From: Acholoe squamosa
Lineage: Eukaryota; Annelida; Polychaeta; Phyllodocida; Polynoidae
Reading direction: 5' to 3'
NCBI GenBank assembly: GCA_949317995.1
Contig: OX439035.1
Coordinates: 3,958,181-4,022,180, forward strand
DNA: 64,000 nucleotides
Below the pieces are notes generated by a model. That model had not been told where the DNA came from. It did not search any database and saw nothing but the letters and a program-made list of their open reading frames with translations. Positions 1 to 64,000 of this stretch are shown here, one piece after another (position 1 is the stretch's first letter; the number at the start of each line of letters is the position of its first letter). The translations under genes were made by a program, and so were the position numbers.

Positions 1-1002
1 ACACAGAGCACCTAGCGCTGCTGCCAGTCCCCTCCACCAGCCTCTTGGCAGTGGTGTGCAGCGCTCACACAATATGGTGTTAGTTCTCTGTGTCTGCTCA
101 TACTTCTCAGGATGCATGAACGCAGCCCTCACTCACTATGGTGTAAGTACTGTGAGTCTGCTCGTAAATCATCATGAGTGACACAATCTGCGAAAAGGGC
201 CCTTAGTGCAGGGTGCATTAGGGTCCCTAGTCCCATGTCACATTGATATATGAATGCAACCCTCACTCACTATGGTGTTAGTACTGTGTCTATGTTGTCA
301 TGATACATGAATGTAGCACTCACTCAATATGGTGAAGGTACATGTTCCCATGTCATCATGATGCATGAATGCAGCGTTTACTCAATATACTGTTAATACT
401 GTGTGTATGCTGCCATGTCGTCATGAAGTATTAATGCAGCCCTAGCTCAATATGGTGTTAGTACAGTGTATATTGCTCCCAATGTCATCATGATGCATGA
501 ACACAGCCCTCACTCAATATGGTGTTAGTATAGTATCCATGTTCCTGTGTTAATCTATGAACGCATCGCTCACTCAGTGTGTTGTTAGTACATATACTGT
601 GAATATGCTTTCAGACAAAAAAAAAGATTCTCCGGAAATGCACCACAGACACCCAAGCTAACCTTTTATAACTTTGAATACCAATTGGTGATAGAAGTGA
701 TAATGATACTAGGCCTACCAGTCAAAATTTCACCAAAAAATGAAATATAGTGTATATGCTGCATTGCTCCCATGTCACCATGATGCATGAACGCAGCCCT
801 CACTCAATGTGGTGTTAGTACTGTGTCTATGCTCCTATGTCATCAATATACAGGATTGCAGCATTGGCGGGTAATTCGCTACCAAGAAGCAAGTTGATGA
901 CTAGTGCACAAAAGCATACACTTTGTTGTCTTTTTATTGAACAAAAGCAGAACTTTGTACCCCAGAGGTTCGTCTCTTTGCCATCCAGCAGACAATACAT
1001 TG

Positions 1003-1230
1003 CATGTCCATATGTGGCAGTGCAGAGAGAGCAAAAGGCGTGGTATAAACATACACAGCCAAATAACACATTTCATGCCCATATATGGCAATGCAGAGGG
1101 AGCTGTTGGTCAGCCAAATAACACATTACATGTCCAAATATGGTCATGCAATATGAGCTAACAGTCTGACACATGTGGCCATAGCACATAACATGCCCAT
1201 ATATGGCAATGCAGTGGTAGCTGCTGCAAT
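1003..1230. repeat. Four copies of a short CCCATATATGGCAATG module
   Basis: Four imperfect ~50-bp copies begin near 1003, 1071, 1128 and 1188. Each has an ACAT(T/A)(G/T/A)CATG(T/C)CC start, a CATATATGGCAATGCAG-like centre and a variable tail. They sit between blocks of the 5' tandem array. Function unknown. Confidence 0.6.
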
Positions 1231-1765
1231 GCAGATAAATATCCACCAATGAGAACACAGCCATGTGATGTGTGGGGAGGGAGGCACCTGGGTGCAGGAA
1301 TGTTGAAAACAGACAGGGAGGTGAGCACACACAGAGCACTAGCGCTGCTGCCAGTCCCCTCCACCAGCCTCTTGGCAGTGATGTGCAACCCTCACTCGAT
1401 GTGGTGTTAGTTCTCTGTGTCTGCTCATACTTCATCATGATGTATGATCACAGCCCTCACTCAATATGGGGTTAGTCCTGTGTGTCTGCTCATAAATCGT
1501 CATGATATATGAATGCAACCCTCATTCACTATGGTGTTAGTTACCCCTCTTATCTATGAAACCTCCCCCGCCTCCGACGGCAGTGGACCTAGAGTCTGTC
1601 TGTTCGTCTGCTGTTTTCACGCACTGACGTGACTGCTTTTATCAAGAAATCTCTATAATTATTCACTTTCAATCCACCCATTCTTCTTTTCTCTCGACCC
1701 TGCATTTATTTCCATCTGAATTTGTCATCTATTTAAGAGGAAAGAAATAATAAGTTTTCCCGATC

Positions 1766-1878
1766 GGTACGTTGACCGAGCAGCGGAAAACTTTGCCGCT
1801 GGTTTCGGCGAGTCTCTCTGTTAAGACGGAGACAAGCACGAGGCCGGTACGTTGACCGAGCGGCGGAAAACTTTGCCG
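1766..1878. repeat. 33-bp direct repeat pair inside an array interruption
   Basis: GGTACGTTGACCGAGC followed by (A/G)GCGGAAAACTTTGCCG is present at 1766-1798 and 1846-1878, one base different and 80 bp apart. The surrounding 1541-1944 stretch has no array units and no convincing ORF. It is probably an insertion into the array, of unknown type. Confidence 0.65.
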
Positions 1879-2035
1879 AGTAGAAGTTGCAATACTTTTG
1901 GCACGTGGTGGCGCCACTTCTTTTCGTGCGAGCAGCGCTGCAGGCGCTGGTACTGTGTCTATGCTCCTATATCATCATGATACATGAATGTAGCACTCAC
2001 TCAATATGGTGCAAGTACATGCTGCCATGTTGTCA

Positions 2036-2079
2036 CATGAGGCCCTACGGATCTTAGGACGTTAAACAAATCATTCAAT
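2036..2079 (+). mobile_element. 44-bp 5'-truncated retroposon tail
   Basis: The insert carries the CCTTAG...GTTAAAC 3' core found elsewhere in the window and ends in an ATTCAAT tail. It is flanked by CATGTTGTCA (2026-2035) and CATGTCGTCA (2080-2089), a 10-bp TSD with one mismatch. Removing the insert restores a normal unit of the surrounding tandem array, so this is an insertion and not a variant unit. Confidence 0.7.
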
Positions 2080-12588: not shown

Positions 12589-12589
12589 T

Positions 12590-13085
12590 ACCAGCACTGC
12601 ATTGGTGCATCATGATACCTATCATTACTGCATTGATGCATCATGTTGACCTCTTCAATCACTGCATTGGTGCATCATGCTGATCTTGTAGCAGCACTGC
12701 ATTGGTGCATCATGCTGACCTCTTCAATCACTGCATTGGTGCATCATGCTGATCTTGTAGCAGCACTGCATTGGAGCATCATGCTGACCTTCAATCACTG
12801 CATTGGTGCATGCTGATCTTGTAGCAGCACTGCATTGGAGCATCATGCTGACCTTCAATCACTGCATTGATGCATCATGCTGACCATGTGCCAGCACTTC
12901 ATTGATGCATCATGCTGACCATGTGCCAGCACTTCATTGATGCATCATGCTGACCATGTGCCAGCACTTCATTGGTGCATCATGCTGACCATGTGTCAGC
13001 ACTGAATTGGTGCATCCTGCGGACACTGCATTGGTGCATCCAGCTCGTATGTACTAGCACTTTATTGGTGCATCATGCTGACATT
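12590..13085 (+). repeat. GCATCATG tandem array, block A1
   Basis: About 17 irregular units of CAGCACTGCATTGGTGCATC plus ATGCTGACC, with alternating linkers (TCTTCAATCA or TTGTAG/CATGTGC). The unit is the same ~30-bp core as the arms of the dispersed hairpin element. The block ends at a tRNA-like segment. Confidence 0.9.
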
Positions 13086-13115
13086 ACCAGTGTAGAGGTC
13101 GGCGGAAAACGTCTT

Positions 13116-13186
13116 GGAGAAACCGGGAATCGAACCCGGGACCCTCCAACCTGCAGGCGGAAGCTCTACCGCTGAGCTACTTCCCC
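13116..13186 (-). tRNA. tRNA-Cys(GCA)-like gene
   Basis: The minus strand folds as a full cloverleaf. The acceptor is GGGGAAG with UUUCUCC (two G-U pairs). The D arm is GCUC/GAGC with loop AGCGGUA, the anticodon loop is CUGCAGG (anticodon GCA), the variable region has 5 nt, and the T arm CCGGG/CCCGG is perfect with UUCGAUU. A box TAGCTCAGCGG and B box GGTTCGATTCC match the Pol III consensus, and TTTT follows after a 6-nt trailer (13106-13109). Doubts: the anticodon stem has a C-U mismatch at 31-39, and the discriminator would be A, whereas eukaryotic tRNA-Cys normally has U. It may be a real gene or a tRNA-derived repeat head. A second, broken copy lies at 13857-13920. Confidence 0.6.
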
Positions 13187-13826
13187 GTCTGACATTCTCT
13201 ACCTTCCACCTACATCTGGATCGGTATAATACACAAGGGGGGCAGCTTATACCAGCTGACCAGCCCCTGAGGGCTGGTGCAACCGGAATGGGGCAGATGG
13301 CCTACCGCCATGGACTTACAGCCAGAGCTGGCCCCTACACTCCTCCCAACCAGCTTCAATCATGGCCAACCAGCACCAAGCATTCCTCCCAACCAGATCG
13401 ATTGGGCTTTATCAAGCAGTGTGAGGCACTCCTGACTTCCCAGTTGACCTACCAGTACACAGTACTGCCAGGGTCGAAGCGTATCTGTATTATACCGTTC
13501 CAGGCACCTACACCTGGATTGGTATGACACACACGTAGGGGGGAGCTACCACCGGATGCCAGCCCCTGGGGGCTGGGATCTCCAGAAACGGGGCTGCTGG
13601 CCTTACGGCAGAGCTGGCCCCTACACTTCTCCCTACCAGATTCAATATAGGGTTCAGTACCCTATAGGTACCAGATACCAGGGACTAGTACTGAGTCGCA
13701 TACCGGCCACCTCTTTCCAAGTCTCCCCAGTACTAGCAAATTGAATGGTCATTCATGTCATACCAGCCCAGGTACCGAGTTCTCGTAGTCCCCCCTCACA
13801 CGGGTCAGGACCAACTCGGTTTCTTC
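13187..13826. other. Unit linking the two tRNA-like copies
   Basis: The phrase AGAGCTGGCCCCTACAC occurs at about 13326, 13610 and 13935, and two similar TATCTGTATTATACCG/GGATCGGTATAATACAC segments occur at about 13220 and 13480. The segment is therefore internally repetitive. Apparent ORFs are readthrough of repeats and antisense tRNA. Confidence 0.4.
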
Positions 13827-13950
13827 ACCAGTGTAGAGGTCGGCGGAAAACGTCTTGGAGAAACCGGGAATCGAACCCGGGACCCTCCAACCTGCAGGCG
13901 GAAGCTCTACCGCTGAGCTATGGACTTACAGCCAGAGCTGGCCCCTACAC
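13827..13950 (-). pseudogene. Truncated duplicate of the tRNA-Cys-like segment
   Basis: 13827-13920 is identical over 94 bp to 13086-13179. It then jumps to text matching 13312-13341 (TGGACTTACAGCCAGAGCTG). The duplicate therefore lacks 132 bp and the 5' acceptor strand of the tRNA (GGGGAAG), although both internal promoter boxes remain. Identity this high implies a recent duplication. Confidence 0.75.
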
Positions 13951-14069
13951 CAGCACTGCATCAGTGATGCCCAAAACTTTATCGATGCAGGCCAAAGTAG
14001 CCTGCGTCATGGCATGTAACGCAGCCCATTTCCCTCTCACACAGGCCATATGTACCCATATAAACGGGC

Positions 14070-17000
14070 ATCATTGCTGCATTGGTGCATCATGCCGACA
14101 TTACCAGCACACATTGGTGCATCAAGCTGACCTGCATTGGTGCATCAAGCAGACATGATACTTACTAGCACTGCATTGGTGCATCATGCTGTATCAGTGC
14201 ATCATGCTGACATGATGCTTACCAGCACTGTATTAGTGCATCATGCTGACATCTAGCAGCACTGCAACGGTGCATCATGCCTATATGTACCAGCACTGCA
14301 TTAGTGCATCATGCCTTTATATGTACCAGCACTGCATTAGTGCATCATGCCTTTATATGTACCAGCACTGCATTAGTGCATCATGCCTTTATATGTACCA
14401 GCACTGCATTAGTGCATTATGCCTATATATGTACCAGCACTGCATTAGTGCATCATGCCTTTATGTACCAGCACTGCATTAGTGCATCATGCCTATATAT
14501 GTACCAGCACTGCATTAGTGCATCATGCCTATATATATACCAGCACTGCATTAGTACATCATGCCTATATATGTACCAGCACTGCATTAGTGCATCATGC
14601 CTTTATATGTACCAGCACTGCATTAGTGCATCATGCCTTTATATGTACCAGCACTGCATTAGTGCATCATGCCTATATATGTACCAGCACTGCATTAGTG
14701 CATCATGCCTTTATGTACCAGCACTGCATTAGTGCATCATGCCTTCATGTACCAGCACTGCATTAGTACATCATGCCTTTTTATGTACCAGCACTGCATT
14801 AGTGCATCATGCCTATATATGTACCAGCACTGCATTAGTGCATCATGCCTTTATGTACCAGCACTGCATTAGTGCATCATGCCTTTATATGTACCAGCAC
14901 TGCATTAGTGCATCATGCCTATATGTACCAGCACTGCATTAGTGCATCATGCCTTTATGTACCAGCACTGCATTAGTGCATCATGCCTTTATGTACCAGC
15001 ACTGCATTAGTGCATCATGCCTTTATATGTACCAGCACTGCATTAGTGCATCATGCCTATATATGTACCAGCACTGCATTAGTGCATCATGCCTTTATAT
15101 GTACCAGCACTGCATTAGTGCATCATGCCTTTATATGTACCAGCACTGCATTAGTGCATCATGCCTTCATGTACCAGCACTGCATTAGTGCATCATGCCT
15201 ATATATGTACCAGCACTGCATTAGTACATCATGCCTTTATGTACCAGCACTGCATTAGTGCATCATGCCTTTATATGTACCAGCACTGCATTAGTGCATC
15301 ATGCCTTTATGTACCAGCACTGCATTAGTGCATCATGCCTATATATGTACCAGCACTGCATTAGTGCATCATGCCTTTATGTACCAGCACTGCATTAGTG
15401 CATCATGCCTATATATGTACCAGCACTGCATTAGTGCATCGTGCCTTTATATGTACCAGCACTGCATTAGTGCATCATGCCTATATATGTACCAGCACTG
15501 CATTAGTGCATCATGCCTTTATATGTACCAGCACTGCATTAGTGCATCATGCCTTTATATGTACCAGCACTGCATTAGTACATCATGCCTATATATGTAC
15601 CAGCACTGCATTAGTGCATCATGCCTTTATGTACCAGCACTGCATTAGTGCATCATGCCTATATATGTACCAGCACTGCATTAGTGCATCATGCCTATAT
15701 ATATACCAGCACTGCATTAGTACATCATGCCTATATATGTACCAGCACTGCATTAGTGCATCATGCCTTTATATGTACCAGCACTGCATTAGTGCATCAT
15801 GCCTTTATATGTACCAGCACTGCATTAGTGCATCATGCCTATATATGTACCAGCACTGCATTAGTGCATCATGCCTTTATGTACCAGCACTGCATTAGTG
15901 CATCATGCCTTTATGTACCAGCACTGCATTAGTGCATCATGCCTATATGTACCAGCACTGCATTAGTGCATCATGCCTTTATGTACCAGCACTGCATTAG
16001 TGCATCATGCCTTTATATGTACCAGCACTGCATTAGTGCATCATGCCTTTATATGTACCAGCACTGCATTAGTGCATCATGCCTTTATGTACCAGCACTG
16101 CATTAGTGCATCATGCCTTTATGTACCAGCACTGCATTAGTGCATCATGCCTATATGTACCAGCACTGCATTAGTACATCATGCCTTTATATGTACCAGC
16201 ACTGCATTAGTGCATCATGCCTATATATGTACCAGCACTGCATTAGTGCATCATGCCTTTATGTACCAGCACTGCATTAGTGCATCATGCCTTTATGTAC
16301 CAGCACTGCATTAGTGCATCATGCCTATATGTACCAGCACTGCATTAGTGCATCATGCCTTTATGTACCAGCACTGCATTAGTGCATCATGCCTTTATAT
16401 GTACCAGCACTGCATTAGTGCATCATGCCTATATGTACCAGCACTGCATTAGTGCATCATGCCTTTATGTACCAGCACTGCATTAGTGCATCATGCCTTT
16501 ATGTACCAGCACTGCATTAGTGCATCATGCCTTTATATGTACCAGCACTGCATTAGTGCATCATGCCTATATATGTACCAGCACTGCATTAGTGCATCAT
16601 GCCTATATGTACCAGCACTGCATTAGTGCATCATGCCTTTATATGTACCAGCACTGCATTAGTGCATCATGCCTTTATATGTACCAGCACTGCATTAGTG
16701 CATCATGCCTTTATGTACCAGCACTGCATTAGTGCATCATGCCTATATATGTACCAGCACTGCATTAGTACATCATGCCTTTATGTACCAGCACTGCATT
16801 AGTGCATCATGCCTTTATATGTACCAGCACTGCATTAGTGCATCATGCCTTTATGTACCAGCACTGCATTAGTGCATCATGCCTATATATGTACCAGCAC
16901 TGCATTAGTGCATCATGCCTTTATGTACCAGCACTGCATTAGTGCATCATGCCTATATATGTACCAGCACTGCATTAGTGCATCGTGCCTTTATATGTAC

Positions 17001-17465
17001 CAGCACTGCATTAGTGCATCATGCCTATATATGTACCAGCACTGCATTAGTGCATCATGCCTTTATATGTACCAGCACTGCATTAGTGCATCATGCCTTT
17101 ATATGTACCAGCACTGCATTAGTACATCATGCCTATATATGTACCAGCACTGCATTAGTGCATCATGGTGACACTGCATTAGTGCATCATGGTGACACTG
17201 CATTAGTGCATCATGGTGACACTGCATTAGTGCATCATGGTGACACTGCATTAGTGCATCATGGTGACACTGCATTAGTGCATCATGGTGACACTGCATT
17301 AGTGCATCATGCCTTTATATGTACCAGCACTGCATTAGTGCATCATGCCTTTATGTACCAGCACTGCATTAGTGCATCATGCCTTTATATGTACCAGCAC
17401 TGCATTAGTGCATCATGGCGACACTGCATTAGTGCATCATGTCTATAATATATGTACCAACACCG
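14070..17465 (+). repeat. 34/36-bp GCATCATG array, block A2, about 90 units
   Basis: Unit: ACCAGCACTGCATTAGTGCA then TCATGCCTTTATATGT (36 bp), or the same without one AT (34 bp). CCTATAT and CCTTTAT variants alternate. Blocks are duplicated within the array: the rare CATCGTGCC variant recurs 1,544 bp apart (15441, 16985), and the CTATATATATACC variant recurs 1,166 bp apart. Because 36 is divisible by 3 and 34 is not, long open frames appear and shift; they are not genes. The first few units (14070-14270) are more diverged. Confidence 0.95.
17160..17300 (+). repeat. 24-bp sub-array within block A2
   Basis: Six near-identical 24-bp units (ATGGTGACACTGCATTAGTG plus CATC) replace the 34/36-bp units, then the long form resumes. 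The short unit is the long one minus the CCTTTATATGTACCAGC linker, as expected from a deletion that was then amplified. One more short unit appears at about 17417. Confidence 0.9.
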
Positions 17466-19511: not shown

Positions 19512-19892
19512 ATATTGTTAAAAAATTATCAATTCCTTAGGTACCAGTTCCGCCCCGGGGTTCCACCTACGAATACAGCAACTAACAGTGGGAATAACTT
19601 CATCAGTCCAAATCTCTCCCAACTAAACCCATGCTCTCTGCTACTGACTGCCCGTGATAGAGGTCATGTGACACAATCCTAAAACGATAAAGTAATCTGA
19701 CCCCCCCCCCCCAAGAAATGTTTCCATCACAGAACTGGTTACTTGGTTTCCATGGTGACCGTGTTAGTAGAGAGGTACTCTAAGGTCACCATGACCCCTA
19801 CAGGCCCCTACAGGGGAAACCTGTGAACACAGTACTACATTTATACCCACTTGTTGGATAGACGTGTTTATTATCTCAATTCTAGCCTTTTA
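19512..19892. other. No recognised feature
   Basis: Unique sequence with a C run near 19700, leading directly into the 53/55-bp array. Confidence 0.35.
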
Positions 19893-22800
19893 AGGGGGCA
19901 GTCATACATCGTGCTGAACCTACAGGGTTGATATTGTCCCCTGTAAGGGCCGCAGTCATACATCGTGCCGAACCTACAGGGTTGATATTGTCCCCTGTAA
20001 GGGGGCAGTCATACATCATGCTGAACCTACAGTGTTGATATTGCCCTCCCTGTAAGGAGGCAGTCATACATCATGCTGAACCTACAGGGTTGATATTGTC
20101 CCCTGTAAGGGCGGCAGTCATACATTGTGCTGAACCTACAGGGTTGATATTGTCCCCTGTAAGGGGGCAGTCATACATCGTGCTGAACCTACAAGGTTGA
20201 TATTGTCCCCTGTAAGGGGGCAGTCATACATCGTGCTGAACCTACAGTGTTGATATTGTCCCCCCTGTAAGGGGGCAGTCATACATCGTGCTGAACCTAC
20301 AGGGTTGATATTGTCCCCTGTAAGGGGGCAGTCATACATCATGCTGAACCTACAGGGTTGATATTGTCCCCCCCTGTAAGGGGGCAGTCATACATCATGC
20401 TGAACCTACAGGGTTGATATTGTCCCCTGTAAGGGGGCAGTCATACATCATCCTGAACCTACAGGGTTGATATTGTCCCCTGTAAGGGGGCAGTCATACA
20501 TCGTGCTGAACCTACAGGGTTGATATTGTCCCCCCTGTAAGGGGGCAGTCATACATCATGCTGAACCTACAGGGTTGATATTGTCCCCTGTAAGGGGGCA
20601 GTCATACATCGTGCTGAACCTACAGGGTTGATATTGTCCCCCCTGTAAGGGGGCAGTCATACATCATGCTGAATCTACAGGGTTGATATTGTCCCCTGTA
20701 AGGGGGCAGTCATACATCATGCTGAACCTACAGGGTTGATATTGTCCCCCCTGTAAGGGGGCAGTCATACATCATGCTGAACCTACAGGGTTGATATTGT
20801 CCCCCCTGTAAGGGGGCAGTCATACATCATGCTGAACCTACAGGGTTGATATTGTCCCCTGTAAGGCGGCAGTCATACATCATGCTGAACCTACAGGGTT
20901 GATATTGTCCCCTGTAAGGGGGCAGTCATACATCATGCTGAACCTACAGGGTTGATATTGTCCCCTGTAAGGGGGCAGTCATACATCGTGCTGAACCTAC
21001 AGGGTTGATATTGTCCCCTGTAAGGGGGCAGTCATACATCATGCTGAACCTACAGGGTTGATATTGTCCACTGTAAGGGGGCAGTCATACATCGTGCTGA
21101 ACCTACAGGGTTGATATTGTCCCCTGTAAGGCGGCAGTCATACATCGTGCTGAATCTACAGGGTTGATATCGTCCCCTGTAAGGGGGCAGTCATACATCG
21201 TGCTGAACCTACAGGGTTGATATTGTCCCCTGTAAGGGGGCAGTCATACATCGTGCTGAACCTACAGTGTTGATATTGTCCCCTGTAAGGGGGCAGTCAT
21301 ACATCGTGCTGAACCTACAGGGTTGATATCGTCCCCTGTAAGGGGGCAGTCATACATCGTGCTGAACCTACAGGGTTGATATTGTCCCCTGTAAGGGGGC
21401 AGTCATACATCATGCTGAACCTACAGGGTTGATATTGTCCCCCCTGTAAGGGGGCAGTCATACATCATGCTGAACCTACAGGGTTGATATTGTCCCCCCT
21501 GTAAGGGGGCAGTCATACATCATGCTAAACCTACAGGGTTGATATTGTCCCCTGTAAGGGGGCAGTCATACATCGTGCTGAACCTACAGGGTTGATATTG
21601 TCCCCTGTAAGGGGGCAGTCATACATCGTGCTGAACCTACAGGGTTGATATTGTCCCCTGTAAGGGGGCAGTCATACATCATGCTGAACCTACAGGGTTG
21701 ATATTGTCCTCCCTGTAAGGGGGCAGTCATACATCGTGCTGAACCTACAGGGTTGATATTGTCCCCTGTAAGGTGGCAGTCATACATCATGCTGAACCTA
21801 CAGGGTTGATATTGTCCTCCCTGTAAGGGGGCAGTCATACATCGTGCTGAACCTACAGGGTTCATATTGTCCCTTGTAAGGTGTCAGTCATACATCGTGC
21901 TGAACCTACAGGGTTGATATTGTCCCCTGTAAGGAGGCAGTCATACATCGTGCTGAACCTACAGGGTTGATATTGTCCCCCCTGTAAGGGGGCAGTCATA
22001 CATCGTGCTGAACCTACAGGGTTGATATTGTCCCCTGTAAGGGGGCAGTCATACATCGTGCTGAACCTACAGGGTTCATATTGTCCCTTGTAAGGTGTCA
22101 GTCATACATCGTGCTGAACCTACAGGGTTGATATTGTCCCCTGTAAGGGGGCAGTCATACATCGTGCTGAACCTACAGGGTTGATATTGTCCTCTGTAAG
22201 GGGGCAGTCATACATCGTGCTGAACCTACAGGGTTGATATTGTCCCCCCTGTAAGGCGGCAGTCATACATCATGCTGAACCTACAGGGTTGATATTGTCC
22301 CCTGTAAGGGGGCAGTCATACATCGTGCCGAACCTACAGGGTTGATATTGTCCCCCCTGTAAGTGGGCAGTCATACATCATGCTGAACCTACAGGGTTGA
22401 TATTGTCCCCTGTAAGGGGGCAGTCATACATCATGCTGAACCTACAGGGTTGATATTGTCCCCCCTGTAAGGGGGCAGTCATACATCATGCTGAACCTAC
22501 AGGGTTGATATTGTCCCCCCTGTAAGGGGGCAGTCATACATCGTGCTGAACCTACAGGGTTGATATTGTCCACTGTAAGGGGGCAGTCATACATCATGCT
22601 GAACCTACAGGGTTGATATTGTCCCCTGTAAGGGGGCAGTCATACATCGTGCTGAACCTACAGGGTTGATATTGTCCCCCCTGTAAGGGGGCAGTCATAC
22701 ATCATGCTGAACCTACAGGGTTGATATTGTCTCCTGTAAGGGGGCAGTCATACATCGTGCTGAACCTACAGGGTTGATATTGTCCCCCCTGTAAGGGGGC

Positions 22801-24405
22801 AGTCATACATCATGCTAAACCTACAGGGTTGATATTGTCCCCTGTAAGGGGGCAGTCATACATCGTGCTGAACCTACAGGGTTGATATTGTCCCCTGTAA
22901 GGGGGCAGTCATACATCGTGCTGAACCTACAGGGTTGATATTGTCCCCTGTAAGGGGGCAGTCATACATCATGCTGAACCTACAGGGTTGATATTGTCCT
23001 CCCTGTAAGGGGGCAGTCATACATCGTGCTGAACCTACAGGGTTGATATTGTCCCCTGTAAGGTGGCAGTCATACATCATGCTGAACCTACAGGGTTGAT
23101 ATTGTCCTCCCTGTAAGGGGGCAGTCATACATCGTGCTGAACCTACAGGGTTCATATTGTCCCTTGTAACGTGTCAGTCATACATCGTGCTGAACCTACA
23201 GGGTTGATATTGTCCCCTGTAAGGAGGCAGTCATACATCGTGCTGAACCTACAGGGTTGATATTGTCCCCCCTGTAAGGGGGCAGTCATACATCGTGCTG
23301 AACCTACAGGGTTGATATTGTCCCCTGTAAGGGGGCAGTCATACATCGTGCTGAACCTACAGGGTTCATATTGTCCCTTGTAAGGTGTCAGTCATACATC
23401 GTGCTGAACCTACAGGGTTGATATTGTCCCCTGTAAGGGGGCAGTCATACATCGTGCTGAACCTACAGGGTTGATATTGTCCTCTGTAAGGGGGCAGTCA
23501 TACATCGTGCTGAACCTACAGGGTTGATATTGTCCCCCCTGTAAGGCGGCAGTCATACATCATGCTGAACCTACAGGGTTGATATTGTCCCCTGTAAGGG
23601 GGCAGTCATACATCGTGCCGAACCTACAGGGTTGATATTGTCCCCCCTGTAAGGGGGCAGTCATACATCATGCTGAACCTACAGGGTTGATATTGTCCCC
23701 TGTAAGGGGGCAGTCATACATCATGCTGAACCTACAGGGTTGATATTGTCCCCCCTGTAAGGGGGCAGTCATACATCATGCTGAACCTACAGGGTTGATA
23801 TTGTCCCCCCTGTAAGGGGGCAGTCATACATCGTGCTGAACCTACAGGGTTGATATTGTCCACTGTAAGGGGGCAGTCATACATCATGCTGAACCTACAG
23901 GGTTGATATTGTCCCCTGTAAGGGGGCAGTCATACATCGTGCTGAACCTACAGGGTTGATATTGTCCCCCCTGTAAGGGGGCAGTCATACATCATGCTGA
24001 ACCTACAGGGTTGATATTGTCTCCTGTAAGGGGGCAGTCATACATCGTGCTGAACCTACAGGGTTGATATTGTCCCCCCTGTAAGGGGGCAGTCATACAT
24101 CATGCTGAACCTACAGGGTTGATATTGTCCCCCCTGTAAGGGGGCAGTCATACATCATGCTGAACCTACAGGGTTGATATTGTCTCCTGTAAGGGGGCAG
24201 TCATACATCGTGCTGAACCTACAGGGTTGATATTGTCCCCCCTGTAAGGGGGCAGTCATACATCATGCTGAACCTACAGGGTTGATATTGTCCCCCCTGT
24301 AAGGGGGCAGTCATACATCATGCTTAACCTACAGGGTTGATATTGTCCCCCCTGTATGGGGGCAGTCATACATCATGCTGAACCTACAGGGTTGATATTG
24401 TCCCC
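19893..24405. repeat. 53/55-bp minisatellite, about 84 units
   Basis: Unit: GGGGGCAGTCATACATC(A/G)T, GCTGAACCTACAGGGTTGAT, ATTGTCCCCTGTAA. Two extra C residues in some units make 55 bp. The CATCATGCTGAACCTACAGGG part resembles the CATCATGCCGACCCTCCGGG module of the GCATCATG/TTAA element, and the array stops against a copy of that element at 24413. Minus-strand frames that stay open are repeat artefacts. Confidence 0.95.
21510..24095. repeat. 1,290-bp higher-order tandem duplication
   Basis: Private variants recur exactly 1,290 bp apart: CATGCTAAACC (21521, 22811), TTCATATTGTCCCTTGTAA (about 21862, 23152), GTCCACTGTAAGG (22568, 23858) and GTCTCCTGTAAG (22729, 24019). I saw only two differences between the copies (GGTGTC/CGTGTC near 21889/23169 and AAGTGGG/AAGGGGG near 22361/23651), so the block of about 24 units duplicated very recently. 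Confidence 0.9.
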
Positions 24406-24412
24406 AAGGGCT

Positions 24413-24563
24413 GGCATGATGCGAGCAGTTTCGCTTTTACTTCATTGGCGCATCATGACGCTCTTAAAGGGTTAAATGCCGCTATTGAATTGATGCGGCA
24501 TGATGCATGAATGCAGCACTGGCGAGTAACTCATTGATGTATTAACGGCCCTTAAAGGGTTAA
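24413..24563. mobile_element. GCATCATG/TTAA element, right end plus a mini copy
   Basis: Two successive termini read CTCTTAAAGGGTTAA (TTAA at 24472-24475) and GGCCCTTAAAGGGTTAA (TTAA at 24560-24563). Between them lies the GCATGATGCATGAATGCAGC module. The second terminus runs without a gap into the 64-bp array. Confidence 0.75.
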
Positions 24564-33620: not shown

Positions 33621-33629
33621 TAAAAAATA

Positions 33630-38271: not shown

Positions 38272-38277
38272 ACTACC

Positions 38278-42149: not shown

Positions 42150-42322
42150 AAAGGCCGCATAATGCATCATGCCCATTGGTCAGCATGATGCATGAATGCA
42201 GCCCTGGTGAGTCTACTCACCAAAGCTGCATTCATGCATCATGCCCATTGGTCAGCATGATGCATGAATGCAGCCCTGATGAGTTTACTCACCAGGCATG
42301 CATTCATGCATCATGCTGACCC
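42150..42322. mobile_element. GCATCATG element, module 2 in tandem
   Basis: Two successive copies of GCATCATGCCCATTGGTCAG, CATGATGCATGAATGCAGCC, TGGTGAGTCTACTCACCA, GCTGCATTCATGCATCATGC. This is a two-unit start of exactly the kind of array seen at 1-2542. Confidence 0.75.
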
Positions 42323-43765: not shown

Positions 43766-44277
43766 ATAACCCTTGAAAGGCCGCTGGTGCACGTCTTGCT
43801 CAGGCCACCCTTAAAAATATGTTCGTTTCCTGTCCAGAGGCCTGGTGGATTTTTTTGTAAGAATGGGAAAAGAATTTTTTTTGTCCATCAGCACAAGAAT
43901 CTAGGTTTTCAAGCACAAAATCTTAAAAGTTATGACAAATTCCCCACTTATGATGTTCATGAGAAATAAAAATATTTTCTTAAAAAAGTTTTTTTCCCTC
44001 CCTCCCTCATGGGCTTGAAAGGTCCCACCCTATGGACAGGAAACGGACATATTTTTAAGGGTGGCCTCATTGATCGTCCTGACACACCAATGAAGTGCTG
44101 GCGAGACTGCTCGCCAGCACTTCATTGGAGCATCATGCCGACCCTTCGGGAGTTAATATATTGACCCCGGAGAGTCCAATAAAGTGTTGGTGCGCAGTCT
44201 CGCCAGCACTTCGATGGAGCATCATGACGACCAATAATCTTGACGCATTAATGCCCCAGTGGCCCTTAAGGGGTTAA
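43766..44277. mobile_element. GCATCATG/TTAA element interrupted by another MITE
   Basis: Left end ATAACCCTTGAAAGGCCGCT, right end GGCCCTTAAGGGGTTAA (TTAA 44274-44277; the left TTAA has become ATAA). After removal of the insert at 43803-44066 the text reads on in register with the family (GTGCACGTCTTGC joined to TCATTGATCGTCCTGACACA). The rest is hairpin module 1 twice. Confidence 0.85.
43803..44066. mobile_element. Nested GGCC-ended MITE with 34-bp TIR, TSD TCA
   Basis: GGCCACCCTTAAAAATATGT and then TCGTTTCCTGTCCA on the left match the right end inverted at 33 of 34 positions. TCA lies at 43800-43802 and 44067-44069. It is inserted inside the GCATCATG element and therefore younger. GGCC ends, a GTTTCC subterminal motif and a 3-bp TSD are shared with the elements at 18770, 25751 and 47717. 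Confidence 0.88.
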
Positions 44278-50788: not shown

Positions 50789-52038
50789 CACTGTAAATAG
50801 TAAATACTGTACATCTACAGCAAAAGTTGCTGGCAGCAATTGTTCCAGTAGATTTTGCTGTAGGTCTACAGCAACTGACTTGCTGTAAAGGTACAGCAAC
50901 ATCTCCTGTTGAACTACAGTAACTTCTACTGTAAATTATACTACTGTTGTTGAACAGCAAAAGTTGCTGGCAGCAATTGTTCCAGTAGATTTTGCTGTAG
51001 GTCTACAGCAACTGACTTGCTGTAAAGGTACAGCAACATCTCCTGTTGAACTACAGTAACTTCTACTGTAAATTATACTACTGTTGTTGAACAGCAAAAG
51101 TTGCTGGCAGCAATTGTTCCAGTAGATTTTGCTGTAGGTCTACAGCAACTGACTTGCTGTAAAGGTACAGCAACATCTCCTGTTGAACTACAGTAACTTC
51201 TACTGTAAATTATACTACTGTTGTTGAACAGCAAAAGTTGCTGGCAGCAATTGTTCCAGTAGAATTTGCTGTAAATACACAGTAGATTTGTAATTTGCTG
51301 TAAATGTACAGAAGATTGTAATGTTTTGGTCATTGCATATTGGTTGGCCTGACCAAGTAGAGATAAGTAGTTGGGCCATCATGATAGCCAGCTATGTAGC
51401 ATCATTTATGACTAAATCGGTGTAAAACTAGCCATTGAGTATCACACCCAAGTCACAACAGGCAAGTTTGGTGTATTACACCATCTTTGCAACAGGCAAT
51501 TTAGCTGATACACTAGGAACCTTGGTGTCCATACTCATATTTACTTCCAAGCCACAGAAAAGGTGTGTGTGACAGAATGTAGAAGTTTCTGCTTTAGTTT
51601 ACATAGTTTAATGAAGAGTTCCACATGTTATTAAACTAGAATACAATATGTTCACCCTTGCACATTATTCAATTATGTGACACATTTGACTTCCTTTTCA
51701 TAGATGAAAATAGATTCAGCTTTGAGTAAAAGTTATCTGCCAAAGAGATACTAAGGCCACCTGGTGCCAAAGCACAGAACCACAATGTCTACAGCAGTAC
51801 TTGCTGTAATCCTGCATCTACAGCAAAACACTTAGTAACTGAACAGTGGGTGTTGCTGTATTTGGGGCTACAGCAAATATATGAGAGTATATCTACAGGA
51901 ACACTTGCTGTAATGTTGTATTTACAGCAACAAAGTTGATACTTGTACAGCAAAACTTGCTGCATTTTAGATTACAGCAACTTCTACTGTATGATCACAG
52001 CAAATTCTGCTGTATGTATACATTAACTTTTTACAGTG
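50789..52038. mobile_element. 1.25-kb CACTG-ended non-autonomous element with TACAGCAA sub-repeats
   Basis: The left end CACTGTAAATAGTAAATAC and right end TTAACTTTTTACAGTG are inverted. Dense TACAGCAA / TTGCTGTA motifs in both orientations fill both subterminal zones (50815-51320 and 51785-52030) and are absent from the middle, as in CACTA (EnSpm)-type elements whose transposase binds subterminal repeats. No TSD is visible (CTA left, AGG right) and there is no transposase frame. Confidence 0.65.
50818..51262. repeat. 137-bp tandem triplication within the CACTG element
   Basis: CAGCAAAAGTTGCTGGCAGC starts at 50818, 50955, 51092 and 51229. The three 137-bp units look identical, a very recent amplification of the left subterminal region. 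Confidence 0.92.
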
Positions 52039-58247: not shown

Positions 58248-58810
58248 ACCAGCACTGTATTGATGCATCATGCTGACATGTACCAGCACTGTATTGATGC
58301 ATCATGCCAACCACCAGCACTGTATTGATGCATCAAGCTGACATGTACCAGCACTGTATTGGTGTATCATGCTGCCCACCAGCACTGTATTGGTGCATCA
58401 TGCCAACCACCAGCACTGTATTGGTGCATCATGCTGACCACCAGCACTGTATTGGTGCATCATGCTGACCACCAGCACTATATTGGTGCATCATGCTGAC
58501 CACCAGCACTGTATTGGTGCATCATGCTGACCACCAGCACTGTATTGGTGCATCATGCTGACCACCAGCACTGTATTGATGCATCATGCCAACCACCAAC
58601 ACTGTATTGGTGCATCATGCTGATCACCAGCACTGTATTGGTGCATCATGCTGACCACCAGCACTGTTTTGGTGCATCATGCTGACCACAAACACTATAT
58701 TGGTGCATCATGCTGACCACCAGCACTGTATTGGTGCATCATGCTGCCCACAAGCACTGTATTGGTGCATCATGCCAACCACCAGCACTATATTGGTGCA
58801 TCGTGCTGAC
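58248..58810 (+). repeat. 31-bp GCATCATG array, block B1
   Basis: About 18 units of CCACCAGCACTGTATTGGTG plus CATCATGCTGA. The first three alternate with a CATGTACC linker as in block A2, which links the two arrays. Confidence 0.92.
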
Positions 58811-59112
58811 CGGCATCACTGCATTCATGCACCCTGAACAAACATTTTAAGTATAATGGAAATATCCACAATTCCTGGCAGGGGTATGGCTGCATGTGGT
58901 TCCCGTTCAGTAGGGTCATAGTGGGGGTACACAATGAAGCTCTCTACTGCCACTGCTAACATGACCATCTGGTTGTCCTACTACAGTGTTCAGGTTGGCC
59001 CAGTTTTATAGTTTGGTTGTTTACATGTACTTGGAATCTCTACCATAAGACTGCTGTGTTGTGTTCTGAGAATCAGTGTCTGAAATACTCCAGAAAAACT
59101 TCACCAATAGCA
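58811..59112. repeat. Array spacer S1
   Basis: Begins CTGACCGGCATCACTGCATT, then AAGTATAATGGAAATATCCA. Ends GAATCAGTGTCTGAAATACT ... AGCATTACATTGGTGCATCA. Shorter and more diverged than S2 and S4. Confidence 0.85.
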
Positions 59113-60560
59113 TTACATTGGTGCATCATGCTGTACACCAGTTCTGCATTGGTGCATCATACCATTCACAGGCACTGTATCGGTGCATCATGCTGACCAT
59201 CAGCACTGTATTGGTGCATCATGCTGACCACCAGCACTGTATTGGTGCATCATGCCAACCACCAGCACTGTATTGGTGCATCATGCTGTACACCAGCACT
59301 GTATTGGTGCATCATGCTGACCACCAACACTGCATTGGTGCATCATGCCAACCACCAGCACTGCATTGGTGCATCATGCCAACCACCAGCACTGCATTGG
59401 TGCATCATGCTGACCACCAGCACTGTATTCTTGCATCATGCCAACCACAAGCACTGTATTGGTGCATCATGCCGACCACCAGCACTGTATTGGTGCATCA
59501 TGCTGACCACCAGCACTGTATTGGTGCATCATGCTGACCACCAGCACTGCATTGGTGCATCATGCCAACCACAAGCACTGTATTGGTGCATCATGCTGAC
59601 CACCAGCACTGCATTGGTGCATCATGCCAACCACCAGCACTGTATTGGTGCATCATGCTGACCACAAACACTTTATTGGTGCATCATGCTGACCACCAGC
59701 ACTGTATTGGTGCATAATGCTGCCCACAAGCACTGTATTGGTGCATCATGCTGTACACCAGTTCTGCATTGGTGCATCATGCCAACCACCAGCACTGTAT
59801 TGGTGCATCATGCTGACCACCAGCACTGTATTGGTGCATCATGCTGTCCACCAGCACTGTATTGGTGCATCATGCCAACCACCAGCACTGTATTGGTGCA
59901 TCATGCTGTCCACCAGCACTGTATTGGTGCATCATGCTGACCACCAGCACTGTATTGGTGCATCATGCCAACCACCAGCACTGTATTGGTGCATCATGCT
60001 GTCCACCAGCACTGTATTGGTGCATCATGCTCACCACCAGCACTGTATTGGTGCATCATGCTCACCACCAGCACTGTATTGGTGCATCATGCTGTACACC
60101 AGCACTGTATTGGTGCATCATGCTGACCACCAGCACTGTACTGGTGCATCATGCTGACCACCAGCACTGTATTGGTGCATCATGCTCACCACCAGCACTG
60201 TATTGGTGCATCATGCTGTCCACCTGCACTGTATTGGTGCATCATGCTGACCACCAACACTGCATTGGTGCATCATGCCAACCACCAGCACTGCATTGGT
60301 GCATCATGCTCACCACCAGCACTGTATTGGTGCATCATGCTCACCACCAGCATTGTATTGGTGCATCATGCTGACCAACAGCACTATATTGGTGCATCAT
60401 GCTGACCACCAGCACTATATTGGTGCATCATGCTCACCACCAGCACTGTATTGGTGCATCATGCTCACCACCAGCACTGTATTGGTGCATCATGCTCACC
60501 ACCAGCACTGTATTGGTGCATCATGCTGACCACCAGCACTACATTGGTGTATCATGCTGA
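59113..60560 (+). repeat. 31-bp GCATCATG array, block B2, about 47 units
   Basis: Units vary mainly in the last 6-8 bases (CTGACCACC, CCAACCACC, CTGTACACC, CTCACCACC). Long open frames are repeat artefacts: three 31-bp units make 93 bp, divisible by 3. Confidence 0.95.
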
Positions 60561-60945
60561 CCGGCATCACTGCATTGATGCACCTTGAACCAACATTTCA
60601 AGTATAATGGAAATATCCACAATTCCTGGCAGGGGTAAGGCTGCAGGTGGTTCCTGTTCAGTAGGGTCATGGTGGGGGCACACAATGGAGCTCTCTTCTG
60701 CCATTGCTGACATGACCATCTGGTTGACCTACTTCTCTGCCTGCTGGTTCAACTGGTTGTAGGATGTTGCTGCCTTGAAGAGTCTTGGGTGTGACATGGA
60801 GGATATTTCCACCAGTGTTCAGGTTGGCCCAGTTTTATAGTTAGGGTGTTTACATGTACATACTTGGATGTACCATAAAATTGCTGTGTTGTGTTCTGAG
60901 AATCAGTGTCTGAAATACTGCACAAAAACTTCACCTATAGCATTA
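60561..60945. repeat. Array spacer S2
   Basis: Nearly identical to S4 (62836-63222). Landmarks: CTTGAACCAACATTTCAAGT, ATTCCTGGCAGGGGTAAGGC, TGTAGGATGTTGCTGCCTTG, GTTGTGTTCTGAGAATCAGT. Confidence 0.9.
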
Positions 60946-61403
60946 CATTGGTGCATCATGCTGTACACCAGCACTGTATTGGTGCATCATGCTGTACACA
61001 GTTCTGCATTGGTGCATCATGCCATTCACCAGCACTGTATTGGTGCATCATGCCAACCACCAGCACTGCATTGGTGCATCATGCCGACCACCAGCACTGC
61101 ATTGGTGCATCATGCCAACCACCAGCACTGTATTGGTGCATCATGCTCACCACCAGCACTATATTGGTGCATCATGCTAACCACCAGCACTGTATTGGTG
61201 CATCATGCCAAACACCAGCACTGTATTGGTGCATCATGCTCACCACCAGCACTGTATTGGTGCATCATGCTCACCACCAGCACTGTATTGGTGCATCATG
61301 CTGACCCCAAGTACTGTATTGGTGCATCATGCTGACCCCAAGCACTGTATTGGTGCATTATGCTGCCCACCAGCACTGCATTGGTGCATCATGCCAACCA
61401 CCA
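60946..61403 (+). repeat. 31-bp array, block B3 (plus orientation)
   Basis: About 14 units, ending abruptly in CCAACCACCAC at an inversion junction. Confidence 0.93.
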
Positions 61404-62445
61404 CCTGTTGGTCAGCATGATGCACCAATACAATGCTGGTGGTGAGCATGATGCACCAATACAGTGCTGGTGGTGAGCATGATGCACCAATGCAGTGCTG
61501 GTGGTTGGCATGATGCACCAATGCAGTGTTGGTGGTCAGCATGATGCACCAATACAGTGCAGGTGGACAGCATGATGCACCAATACAGTGCTGGTGGTGA
61601 GCATGATGCACCAATACAGTGCTGGTGGTGAGCATGATGCACCAATATAGTGCTGGTGGACAGCATGATGCACCAATACAGTGCTGGTGATCAGCATGAT
61701 GCACCAATACAGTGCTGGTGGTTGGCATGATGCACCAATACAGTGCTAGTGGTTGGCATGATGCACCAATGCAGTGCTGGTGGGCAGCATAATGCACCAA
61801 TACAGTGATGCAACATCCTACAACCAGTTGAACCAGCAGGCAGAGAAGTAGGTCAACCAGATGGTCATGTCAGCAATGGCAGTAGAGAGCTCCATTGTGT
61901 GCCCCCACCATGACCCTACTGAACAGGAACCACCTGCAGCCTTACCCCTGCCAGGAATTGTGGATATTTCCATTATACTTGAAATGTTGGTTCAAGGTGC
62001 ATCAATGCAGTGATGCCGGTCAGCATGATACACCAATGTAGTGCTGGTGGTGAGCATGATGCACCAATACAGTGCTGGTGGTCAGCATGATGCACCAATA
62101 CAGTGCTGGTGGTCAGCATGATGCACCAATATAGTGCTGTTGGTCAGCATGATGCACCAATACAGTGCTGGTGGTGAGCATGATGCACCAATATAGTGCT
62201 GGTGGACAGCATGATGCACCAATACAGTGCTGGTGATCAGCATGATGCACCAATACAGTGCTGGTGGTTGGCATGATGCACCAATACAGTGCTAGTGGTT
62301 GGCATGATGCACCAATGCAGTGCTGGTGGGCAGCATAATGCACCAATACAGTGCTTGGGGTCAGCATGATGCACCAATACAGTACTTGGGGTCAGCATGA
62401 TGCACCAATACAGTGCTGGTGGTGAGCATGATGCACCAATACAGC
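61404..62445 (-). repeat. Inverted array segment with truncated spacer S3
   Basis: 61404-61804 and 62016-62445 are minus-orientation 31-bp units (GGTGGT(C/G)AGCATGATGCACC). Between them, 61805-62015 is the reverse complement of the first half of spacer S2, cut at GGATGTTGC. The whole is bounded by head-to-head and tail-to-tail junctions at about 61403 and 62445. Confidence 0.93.
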
Positions 62446-62835
62446 ACTGTATTGGTGCATCATGCTGACCCCAAGTACTGTATTGGTGCATCATGCTGAC
62501 CCCAAGCACTGTATTGGTGCATTATGCTGCCCACCAGCACTGCATTGGTGCATCATGCCAACCACTAGCACTGTATTGGTGCATCATGCCAACCACCAGC
62601 ACTGTATTGGTGCATCATGCTGATCACCAGCACTGTATTGGTGCATCATGCTGTCCACCAGCACTATATTGGTGCATCATGCTCACCACCAGCACTGTAT
62701 TGGTGCATCATGCTGACCAACAGCACTTTATTGGTGCATCATGCTGACCACCAGCACTGTATTGGTGCATCATGCTGACCACCAGCACTGTATTGGTGCA
62801 TCATGCTCACCACCAGCACTACATTGGTGTATCAT
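62446..62835 (+). repeat. 31-bp array, block B4
   Basis: The first 12 units repeat, inverted and in the same order, the units to the left of 62415. I saw one difference (ACTTTATTGG against ACTATATTGG). Confidence 0.93.
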
Positions 62836-63222
62836 GCTGACCGGCATCACTGCATTGATGCACCTTGAACCAACATTTCAAGTATAATGGAAATATCCAC
62901 AATTCCTGGCAGGGGTAAGGCTGCAGGTGGTTCCTGTTCAGTAGGGTCATGGTGGGGGCACACAATGGAGCTCTCTACTGCCATTGCTGACATGACCATC
63001 TGGTTGACCTACTTCTCTGCCTGCTGGTTCAACTGGTTGTAGGATGTTGCTGCCTTGAAGAGTCTTGGGTGTGACATGGAGGATATTTCCACCAGTGTTC
63101 AGGTTGGCCCAGTTTTATAGTTAGGGTGTTTACATGTACTTGGATGTACCATAAGACTGCTGTGTTGTGTTCTGAGAATCAGTGTCTGAAATACTCCACA
63201 AAAACTTCACCTATAGCATTAC
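62836..63222. repeat. Array spacer S4
   Basis: Near-identical to S2. Differences noted: CTCTCTACTGCC for CTCTCTTCTGCC, loss of ATAC in ATGTACATACTTGG, and AAGACTGC for AAAATTGC. Confidence 0.9.
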
Positions 63223-64000
63223 ATTGGTGCATCATGCTGTACACCAATTCTGCATTGGTGCATCATGCCATTCACCAGCACTGTATTGGTGCATCATGCC
63301 ATTCACCTGCACTGTATTGGTGCATCATGCCATTCACCTGCACTGTATTGGTGCATCATGCCGACCACCAGCACTGTATTGGTGCATCATGCTGACTGCC
63401 AGCACTGTATTGGTGCATCATGCCGACCACCAACACTGCATTGGTGCATCATGCTGACCACCAACACTGCATTGGTGCATCATGCCAACCACCAGCACTG
63501 TATTGATGCATCATGCTGACCACCAACACTGCATTGGTGCATCATGCCAACGACCAGCACTGTATTGATGCATCATGCTGTACACCAGCACTGTATTGGT
63601 GCATCATGCTGACCACCAACACTGCATTGGTGCATCATGCCAACCACCAGCACTGCATTGGTGCATCATGCCAACCACCAGCACTGCATTGGTGCATCAT
63701 GCTGACCACCAGCACTGTATTGTTGCATCATGCCAACCACAAGCACTGCATTGGTGCATCATGCCAACCACAAGCACTGTATTGGTGCATCATGCTGACC
63801 ACCAGCACTGTATTGGTGCATCATGCTGACCACCAGCACTGTATTGGTGCATCATGCTGACCACCAGCACTGTATTGGTGCATCATGCTGACCACCAACA
63901 CTGCATTGGTGCATCATGCCAACCACCAGCACTGCATTGGTGCATCATGCCAACCACCAGCACTGCATTGGTGCATCATGCTGACCACCAGCACTGTATT
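63223..64000 (+). repeat. 31-bp array, block B5, runs off the window
   Basis: About 25 units from the S4 edge to the end of the window. Early units carry CATTCACCTGC linkers; later ones CTGACCACC and CCAACCACC. Confidence 0.95.

Follow-up and report, generated by a model that had tools for sequence, protein, structure and literature searches.

Different parts of one short TTAA-flanked element recur as minisatellite units in the annelid Acholoe squamosa

Can one short transposable element supply the units of many minisatellites that look unrelated to each other? The question is raised by a stretch of 64,000 nucleotides from Acholoe squamosa (assembly GCA_949317995.1, contig OX439035.1, positions 3,958,181 to 4,022,180 of the forward strand), hereafter the window, which is itself located near a chromosome end. 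A sequence-only reading of the window had proposed that most of its large minisatellites were seeded by different modules of the same element.

The element was rebuilt from its copies, excluding element matches that lay wholly inside seven array ranges. The consensus (TTAACCCTTT...AAAGGGTTAA) is 257 bp long, which is under the MITE size of about 500 bp, and contains two long internal hairpins, A and B. The consensus has TTAA at either end, and the terminal inverted repeat, TTAA-CCCTTTAA...TTAAAGGG-TTAA, has its first 12 bases identical at both ends. The termini carry the CC[C/T]T start motif of piggyBac-type MITEs, as given in PMC2872659, and the Kolobok/T2-MITE terminal motif (AGGRR or RR by TTAA, from PMC6004289) is absent from the ends, which read CCCTTT. 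By its ends, the element would be a short, non-autonomous, TTAA-flanked DNA element of the piggyBac MITE type. The folding energy of the consensus was -139.3 kcal/mol compared to -42.1 kcal/mol (SD 3.3) in 200 shuffles (z = -29), and it can fold end to end as a cloverleaf of long hairpins. Long inverted repeats fold the entire consensus back on itself, as in foldback elements of the Tetris type, but the tandem subrepeats that regularly form part of the inverted repeats in that type were not found, in adjacent form, in the consensus; the element behaves like a foldback element, yet is not classed as one. Direct-repeat analysis of the consensus found its modules to be internally repetitive.

Copies of the element on the plus strand of the window include one that is near full length with TTAA at both ends (28690-28956, consensus 1-257, 76%), a 5'-truncated copy with an intact 3' terminus (31631-31808, consensus 83-257, 85%), a copy with the 3' terminus and, by eye, two A-like hairpins (44068-44277, consensus 41-257, 75%) and the best copy in the window (36334-36567, consensus 28-257, 91% identity).

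Each array unit was compared with the consensus alongside 300 dinucleotide shuffles of that unit. Eight of the 24 arrays in the window, representing 15,180 of 18,280 array bp, matched the element, and all eight did better than every one of their 300 shuffles; the earlier proposal was to be abandoned had units aligned no better than shuffled sequences. When the consensus was reversed but not complemented, none of the 24 arrays matched this decoy at score 28. Among the 13 arrays with a TRF score of at least 200, eight matched by content and ten when two arrays that start at the element tip are included. To that extent most large minisatellites do trace to one element, but 35443-35717 and 50817-51273 are unrelated to it (299/300 and 132/300 shuffles as good, respectively).

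The right arm of hairpin A was found in three arrays on the plus strand: a 35-bp array at 12589-13024 (consensus 87-116, 28/30 bp), a 36-bp array at 14220-17417 (consensus 87-112, 24/26 bp), inside which TRF identified a 24-bp sub-array at 17148-17311, and a 31-bp array at 58248-64000 (27/30 bp), each with 0/300 shuffles as good. The first two had been taken for one hairpin-arm repeat at 12590-17465; both parts match, but they are separate arrays about 1.2 kb apart. Two tRNA-family matches lie between them. The third was correctly assigned to a hairpin arm, but is broken by non-array inserts and inverted segments. It is arranged in inverted blocks, shows as assembled a 609-bp perfect inverted repeat and extends past the window to at least C1:4028811.

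Other modules were found in the remaining arrays. The central spacer region (consensus 128-163, 29/36 bp, 0/300 shuffles) makes up a 53/54-bp array on the minus strand at 19891-24405, which on its right borders a weak element copy (24362-24460, 69%), as had been said of this "53/55-bp" array. A subterminal module (16/17 bp, 0/300 shuffles) makes up a 22-bp array on the minus strand at 35815-36350, which passes narrowly (score 29 versus 28 for the best shuffle). This array occupies the place of the missing 5' end of the copy at 36334 and runs straight into it, which agrees with the description of 35808-36345. The spacer and left arm of hairpin B (CATGATGCATGAATGCAGCC) recur on the plus strand in 57-67 bp units over 338-2470 (TRF). 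Here the module repeat described for 1-2542 was recovered at 338-534 (32/33 bp) and at 2081-2470 (28/33 bp, with the best match on the minus strand, to the mirror arm), with 0/300 shuffles as good in both; the arrays are degenerate and interrupted, and 1386-1541 was marginal (10/300 shuffles). The complete hairpin B is present as a 72-bp two-copy duplication on the plus strand at 42162-42316 (94/106 bp, 0/300 shuffles). It is an intermediate form, as had been recognized at 42150-42322.

Two arrays share only the tip with the element. The 64-bp array at 24555-25259 (plus strand, TRF) begins at an element end, and its unit consists of the tip (AAGGGTTAA) and 55 bp with no element match. On its left it is adjoined, and its start overlapped, by rearranged element pieces that end in ...GGCCCTTAAAGGGTTAA (24406-24563, no strand assigned; BLAST copies 24362-24460 and 24496-24532, and reading of the sequence). 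The 37-bp array at 32752-33624 (plus strand, TRF) starts from a mutated terminus (AAAGGGTAAA), and an element end fragment (32721-32761, minus strand, consensus 1-40, 88%) marks its left edge. Here too the remainder of the unit has no element match. The claim that arrays at 24557-25260 and 32750-33620 start at an element terminus was right for the left edges, but the unit matches are weak: 9/9 bp for the first, the tip alone (35/300 shuffles as good), and 10/11 bp for the second (21/300). As the match covers 9-11 bp only, the interpretation of these units as amplified element interiors was rejected.

Tandem pairs of element words were then counted genome-wide. The tip AAAGGGTTAA occurred at 76,205 places, compared to 7,201 for the reversed control, with 18,883 pairs in direct orientation at a spacing of 30-60 bp (reversed control, 4). 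Tandem pairs of the hairpin B arm and the hairpin A arm numbered 1,453 and 1,771, respectively, with none for either reversed control. With reversed patterns giving 4, 0 and 0, chance was rejected as the source of the tandem excess. Both arms showed different units at different loci. That different modules feed different arrays is supported in the window and, for the tip, the A arm and the B arm, across the genome; the exception is the pair of window arrays that share the tip only.

The 100 B-arm pairs listed, out of 1,453, fall at 26 loci on C1 and have, on reading, 14 different periods, 71 bp being the longest period that the pattern can detect. The A arm has 10 different periods on one chromosome. 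Units were read at 19 of the B-arm loci (the other 7 of the 26 are mostly repeats of structures already sampled), and 14 of the 19 were covered by the element to at least 0.95, while coverage of shuffled units was near 0. Allowing 5/20 mismatches, the hairpin apex was present in 9 units and absent from 10. We therefore rejected a general rule by which the unit is one hairpin arm ending at the apex, and a simple model in which the fork stops at the apex fails. Most periods have no match to the internal direct repeats of the element. Two-copy forms were found at L041 and L042 in addition to 42162-42316.

Sequence comparison supports the derivation of the window arrays from different modules, and an origin of the arrays from the element is very probable. 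Derivation in sequence, recurrence with differing units, two-copy forms and tip arrays beside element copies were observed directly. The account that we favor, and consider probable as a whole, is that element copies repeatedly undergo small tandem duplications, some of which would expand into minisatellites. The duplicated piece would be a whole hairpin, an arm with spacer, a subterminal piece, the tip with subterminal sequence, or the tip with non-element DNA, which we take to be flank. Because breakpoints would vary from copy to copy, one element could yield many repeats that look unrelated. How the first duplication arises is a more tentative matter, to which we give slightly less than an even chance: template switching may be responsible, or else unequal exchange, with the hairpins and the internal direct repeats of the element assisting. 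The strongest pair of these repeats has a spacing of 71 bp, which is also the period most often found for the B arm. Later growth would be by unequal exchange.

An alternative source of the first duplication is the transposase. A candidate piggyBac-type enzyme would cut the TTAA ends, and error-prone repair would copy the tip with neighboring DNA, leaving the hairpins irrelevant. The genome contains 90 matches to the piggyBac transposase domain (PF13843), some in open frames (best match 1.0e-88, with a 486-aa open frame); two piggyBac copies lie at C3:84102671 and C8:52428409, and the element terminus reads TTAACCCTTTAAGG. Tip arrays do start at element ends, and both in the window abut element body, as do 3 of 5 read at their edges elsewhere in the genome, which counts for the favored account as well; the edges read of the other two (L037 and L046/L047) showed no element body, which counts against that account. 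One locus listed as a tip pair (821k, L035) held no array on reading. Of the three words, the tip also yielded the largest number of tandem pairs, although it is the shortest. But breakage at the ends leaves the inner hairpin-arm and spacer arrays unexplained, and in the tip units, on reading, element sequence extends about 5-22 bp past the cut site. We consider this alternative unlikely.

Alternatively, a few arrays might have been amplified once and then spread ready-made in mobile copies or by segmental duplication, so that recurrence would reflect descent. Some unit structures are indeed common to several loci, including 38-bp tip arrays at three places on C1 and B-arm periods of 71, 43 and 48 bp, seen at 7, 4 and 2 of the 26 listed loci, respectively, and loci of equal period may share descent. 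Against this stand the 14 B-arm periods, the 10 A-arm periods and 7 tip unit types on one chromosome, as well as units that contain non-element DNA. Descent of this kind is rather improbable as the general explanation.

The association might also be a product of chance and abundance, with arrays catching pieces of a very common element in a distal region rich in arrays and recombination. Exact-match element copies, presumably recent, are concentrated near chromosome ends, as are the B-arm arrays among those listed, and most sampled arrays lack the element: in a grid sample of 260 kb, mostly from chromosome interiors, 1 of 85 arrays was element-derived and 84 were unrelated (eight loci of 3 kb each, with one A-arm array, lay outside this sample). 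However, the end of one other dispersed repeat, also mildly distal on C1, gave 3 tandem pairs among 7,761 places, compared to 18,883 pairs among 76,205 tips. In the proposed genome-wide check, the association greatly exceeded that of the single other repeat family examined, but 84 of 85 sampled arrays were unrelated; judged against this one control family, a lack of enriched adjacency, which would have counted against the earlier reading, is not seen. Within the window, element pieces entering an array were clipped at the array edge and 42162-42316 was excluded; the distance to an element copy was then 5 bp or less for 3 of 12 arrays, where the null mean was 0.07, and 30 bp or less for 4 of 12, where it was 0.38; none of 5000 random placements equalled either count. 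At 100 bp the count was again 4 of 12, which was reached in 130 of 5000 placements. Chance and abundance are accordingly quite improbable as an explanation. Assembly of the element out of pre-existing satellites, which its internally repetitive modules might suggest, is highly improbable, as near-complete copies in dispersed places have defined ends and keep their modules in one order (28690-28956, L009 and L038) and the arrays sample many different stretches of that order.

Repeated duplication of element copies has relatives among known systems. Satellite birth from parts of transposons is already described (PMC9659126, PMC4079207, PMC2872659), including satellites from TTAA-type MITEs and from foldback elements (PMC2872659, PMC4079207). 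CMITE of Acropora corals (PMC2872659) is likewise short, with TTAA ends, the CC[C/T]T motif and tandem arrays, which were put down to replication slippage; there, full-sized MITEs with intervening sequence are repeated, whereas in Acholoe it is mostly single modules, or the tip with other DNA, in many unit types. The Tetris foldback element of Drosophila virilis, with its TIR-220 satellite (PMC4079207), is also modular and rich in inverted repeats, and parts of it became arrays, but one tandem module pre-existed in its terminal inverted repeats; in Acholoe several modules are involved, none of them constantly present in tandem within the element. The Xenopus Xmix/T2-MITE with Xstir repeats (PMC6004289) is likewise a MITE flanked by TTAA in which an internal segment has been amplified, but a single one, and has the AGGRR motif (Kolobok type) in place of CCCTTT. 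In molluscs (PMC5139131), where satellites with palindromes and pearl-family MITEs occur, short tandem arrays are again linked to MITEs; the families differ and the tandem repeats are described there as internal modules of the element. Junctions of one mollusc satellite fall in palindromes, reportedly 13 of 16 in the longer one (PMC5139131). Among the papers listed by our literature searches, most of them judged by title and abstract opening, we noticed none that described arrays combining a transposon tip with other DNA, or a single MITE as the source of many types of unit. What is unusual here is the use of many modules of one element together with arrays of tip and non-element DNA. The suggestion that six or seven satellites from one element would be an unusual model is therefore best restated: the Acholoe case is unusually rich and replicated, but not an unprecedented model.

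A more far-reaching version of the favored account, which we regard as doubtful, makes the element a general nucleator of new satellites whose hairpin, spanning its whole length, would stall or break replication at the ends and loops, so that adjoining host DNA, as well as the element's modules, is multiplied with the tip as a tag. If this were true, a large share of the distal minisatellites of this genome, with their unrelated units, would go back to a single small transposon, and each array would carry the tip as a sign of where it was born.

How the first tandem duplication in the history of a satellite came about can seldom be seen, because each satellite is born only once. In Acholoe one element seems to have given rise to arrays at a large number of loci; their breakpoints differ, two-copy stages are among them and some carry non-element DNA, and they are natural replicates for how new satellite DNA may begin. 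The question left open by the authors of the Tetris study (PMC4079207), of whether a foldback-like structure predisposes an element to seed satellites, becomes directly testable here. Our results also suggest that satellites of unrelated units can have a common origin, visible only by a 10-bp tag.

The element was rebuilt as a majority-call consensus from copies in the window and in 200 kb of genome, aligned to a draft typed by eye, with matches lying wholly inside arrays excluded; depth was 4-27 copies at the positions listed and was lowest at the 5' end. The consensus is 257 bp long (TTAACCCTTTAAGG...TTAAAGGGTTAA) and its ends are identical inverted repeats over 12 bases. Internally it has two long hairpins, A (centre ~80) and B (centre ~177), and a weaker third hairpin at ~129. 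Folded whole as single-stranded DNA, it reached -139.3 kcal/mol, compared with a shuffle mean of -42.1 (sd 3.3, n = 200). Its strongest internal direct repeat pairs 147-164 with 218-235, a spacing of 71 bp. In the window, 28690-28956 is an almost complete copy bounded on each side by TTAA, and 36334-36567 is the copy nearest to the consensus.

The window spans C1:3958181-4022180, and its 41 TRF rows, merged at a period of at least 12, gave 24 arrays. Together with 59 arrays from the first 200 kb of a genome sample (83 in all), their units were doubled and aligned on both strands to the consensus, with 300 dinucleotide shuffles each. Eight window arrays beat all 300 shuffles: 338-534, 2081-2470, 12589-13024, 14220-17417, 19891-24405, 35815-36350 (narrowly, with a score of 29 versus 28 for the best shuffle), 42162-42316 and 58248-64000. 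The same eight of 24 matched the element at a fixed score of 28, as compared to none of the 24 with the reversed (not complemented) consensus, and these eight account for 15,180 of the window's 18,280 array bases. The amplified modules were of five kinds: the left arm of hairpin B with spacer, the right arm of hairpin A, the spacer, a subterminal piece and the whole of hairpin B. The sequence-only reading had proposed that most large minisatellites of the window were seeded by different modules of one element. The different modules withstood the shuffle control. "Most large" stood in part, as eight of the 13 arrays with a TRF score of at least 200 match the element at score 28, but two arrays that start at the element's tip (its terminal word) fail the shuffle test. 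These are 24555-25259 (9/9 bases matching, equalled by 35/300 shuffles) and 32752-33624 (10/11 bases, equalled by 21/300).

Several other features of the window were recorded. A 137-bp array of ACAGCAA/TTGCTGT inverted motifs at 50817-51273 is unrelated to the element and is perhaps another palindromic element in tandem. An open frame at 38230-38727 encodes C2H2 zinc fingers (PF00096, 1.1e-07). Two minus-strand tRNA-family matches within a repeated block (13115-13186 and 13863-13921) are possibly a tRNA-derived SINE or a duplicated tRNA piece. The 31-bp array of 58248-64000 extends beyond the window, matches continuing over at least 6.6 kb (C1:4022203-4028811), and this array type contains repeated inserts that are not built from array units. 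Within it, at 61810-63050, is a 609-nt inverted repeat, 100% complementary with arms 23 nt apart, which points either to an assembly error or to a very recent inverted duplication.

When the sequence was read, the left starts of 24555-25259 and 32752-33624 both proved to lie at the end of an element piece, as had been proposed. Adjacency was assessed with 12 arrays, 26 of the 27 window copies (the copy inside 42162-42316 was omitted) and 5000 random placements. At a limit of 5 bp three of the 12 arrays adjoined a copy, and at 30 bp four did, neither equalled by any placement. Pieces overlapping array edges had been trimmed at the edge, a step that biases those pieces towards close contact. At a limit of 100 bp the observed adjacency was equalled by 130/5000. 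Of eight tip units aligned after masking of the tip itself, three (the C1 loci 198k, 484k and 3796k) still matched the subterminal part of the element, and five (834k, 3808k, a short piece designated L037, 24555 and 32752) matched no part of it. Unmasked, the element match covers 0.57 of the 834k unit and 0.77 of the 3808k unit. The tip-array units read were 30, 31, 38, 40 and 73 bp long, and the window's own are 64 and 37 bp.

Thirteen short pieces were read at junctions. In L038 a 40-bp array extends outward from the CCCTTAAAGGGTTAA end of a complete element (80% identity), in L036 a 30-bp array sits immediately outside the 5' end of an element, and in L040 a 31-bp array enters the 5' end, its units including up to ~23 bp of that end. 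No element body was present at the edges read in L037 (73-bp units) or L046/L047 (38-bp units). Two-copy forms occur in L041 and L042, half of hairpin B is in array in L043/L044, and spacer plus B arm is in array in L045.

The search was extended to the genome (1,481,437,319 bases, 63 contigs). The tip word AAAGGGTTAA occurs at 76,205 places, versus 7,201 for the reversed word, and forms 18,883 same-direction pairs with 20-50 bases between, versus 4; these pair counts are array members rather than arrays. The listed tip pairs represent seven places on C1, one of which (L035) was rejected because it was not an array when read. Tandem pairs of the hairpin B arm numbered 1,453 and of the A arm 1,771, and the arm word CAGCACTGCATTGGTGCATC had 65,356 matches at up to 2 mismatches; the reversed patterns gave 0 in each case. 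The single control family, CAGGGGCGTAGG, was chosen from the commonest words of the sample and is taken for another transposon's end because many listed copies face each other at ~110-170 bp. Its 7,761 places gave only 3 same-direction pairs at 20-50 bases between, and the tandem association of the tip thus holds genome-wide against this one family. Nine CAGGGGCGTAGG copies lie in the 64-kb window (C1:3969358 to 4016369), versus ~0.3 expected from 5.2 per Mb, and are a local cluster. A three-site AAAGGGTTAA pattern (offsets 102 and 26 bp) recurs at C1:1417461, 1456121 and 1506840, 39-51 kb apart, and a larger unit therefore seems duplicated.

Different loci beyond the window also carry different units. 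By our reading, the 100 listed B-arm pairs represent 26 C1 loci with 14 periods between 31 and 71 bp, two of which appear as doubled units; the pattern is blind to periods above 71 bp and several loci rest on one listed pair. Nineteen of the 26 units were read against the element, which covers at least 0.95 of 14 and 0.66-0.80 of five, the remainder being other DNA; cover of shuffled units was ~0. The listed A-arm pairs represent 11 C1 loci, two of them in the window, with ten periods (24, 27, 30, 31, 35, 38, 42, 47, 48 and 51). Unit structures of 71, 43, 48 and 38 bp are common to several loci, which means that some arrays may not have arisen independently.

The sample comprised 26 stretches, each of 10 kb, at round-number coordinates fixed before looking; for 20 of them the nearest chromosome end was over 16 Mb away. 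Element sequence makes up 1,876 of the sample's 260,000 bases, and one of 85 arrays (208 of 15,816 array bases) is element-derived: L025:8768-8975, which matches the element over 38/38 bp and has three units that combine half of hairpin B with other sequence. The window is therefore atypical of the sampled genome. It lies 4 Mb from the chromosome end, inside an element-rich zone. An exact 42-base word from the element's 3' part occurs at 301 places (reversed, 0). Among the first 100 listed, which include all places on C1-C5, 86 of the 93 on C1-C5 are within 16 Mb of an end, versus 31% expected; this limit was set after inspection of C1, and on C2-C5 alone the count is 56/63. Among matches listed, 25 of 26 B-arm array loci (at least 26 on C1, the list stopping before its end) and 10 of 11 A-arm loci (their list likewise stopping short) are within the same distance, and on C1 the listed B-arm loci have a median distance of 4.3 Mb versus 7.5 Mb for element copies (p 2e-4). 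The control CAGGGGCGTAGG is mildly distal: the first 14.2 Mb of C1 contain 100 copies, a density of 7.0 per Mb versus 5.2 for the genome. Of 100 exact A-arm words listed on C1, 55 are interior, at over 16 Mb from either end (32 of them at 100-111 Mb), and 45 are distal. These interior words, together with diverged copies in interior sample stretches, speak against a strict distal rule.

A structure-driven origin of the first duplication fits the strong fold and the 71-bp spacing of the strongest direct repeat. That spacing, found in a search made after the B-arm periods were known, is the period of seven of the 26 listed B-arm loci and nearly equals the 72-bp unit at 42162-42316. Exchange or slippage between the repeats would duplicate one hairpin B, and a fork that entered the base stem, halted and slipped back could yield arrays that combine the tip with other DNA. 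The latter arrays are also compatible with repair after transposase cutting at TTAA, and piggyBac transposase domains are present in the genome. A single simple rule for breakpoints, the hairpin apex, fails, the apex being in nine of 19 B-arm units and absent from 10. We therefore claim the derivation of the arrays from the element with confidence, and regard the structure-driven mechanism as no more than the most probable among several.

In the portions of the literature searched, we found no report of a single small element that feeds numerous unit types within one genome, or of arrays whose unit is a transposon tip plus other DNA. Earlier reports describe TTAA-type MITEs in tandem arrays in corals (PMC2872659), an amplified MITE segment in Xenopus (PMC6004289) and a satellite derived from a foldback element in Drosophila virilis (PMC4079207), and a review states that array units may come from any part of a transposon (PMC9659126). 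The element and its arrays in Acholoe squamosa belong with the coral, Xenopus and D. virilis cases as one of the same kind.
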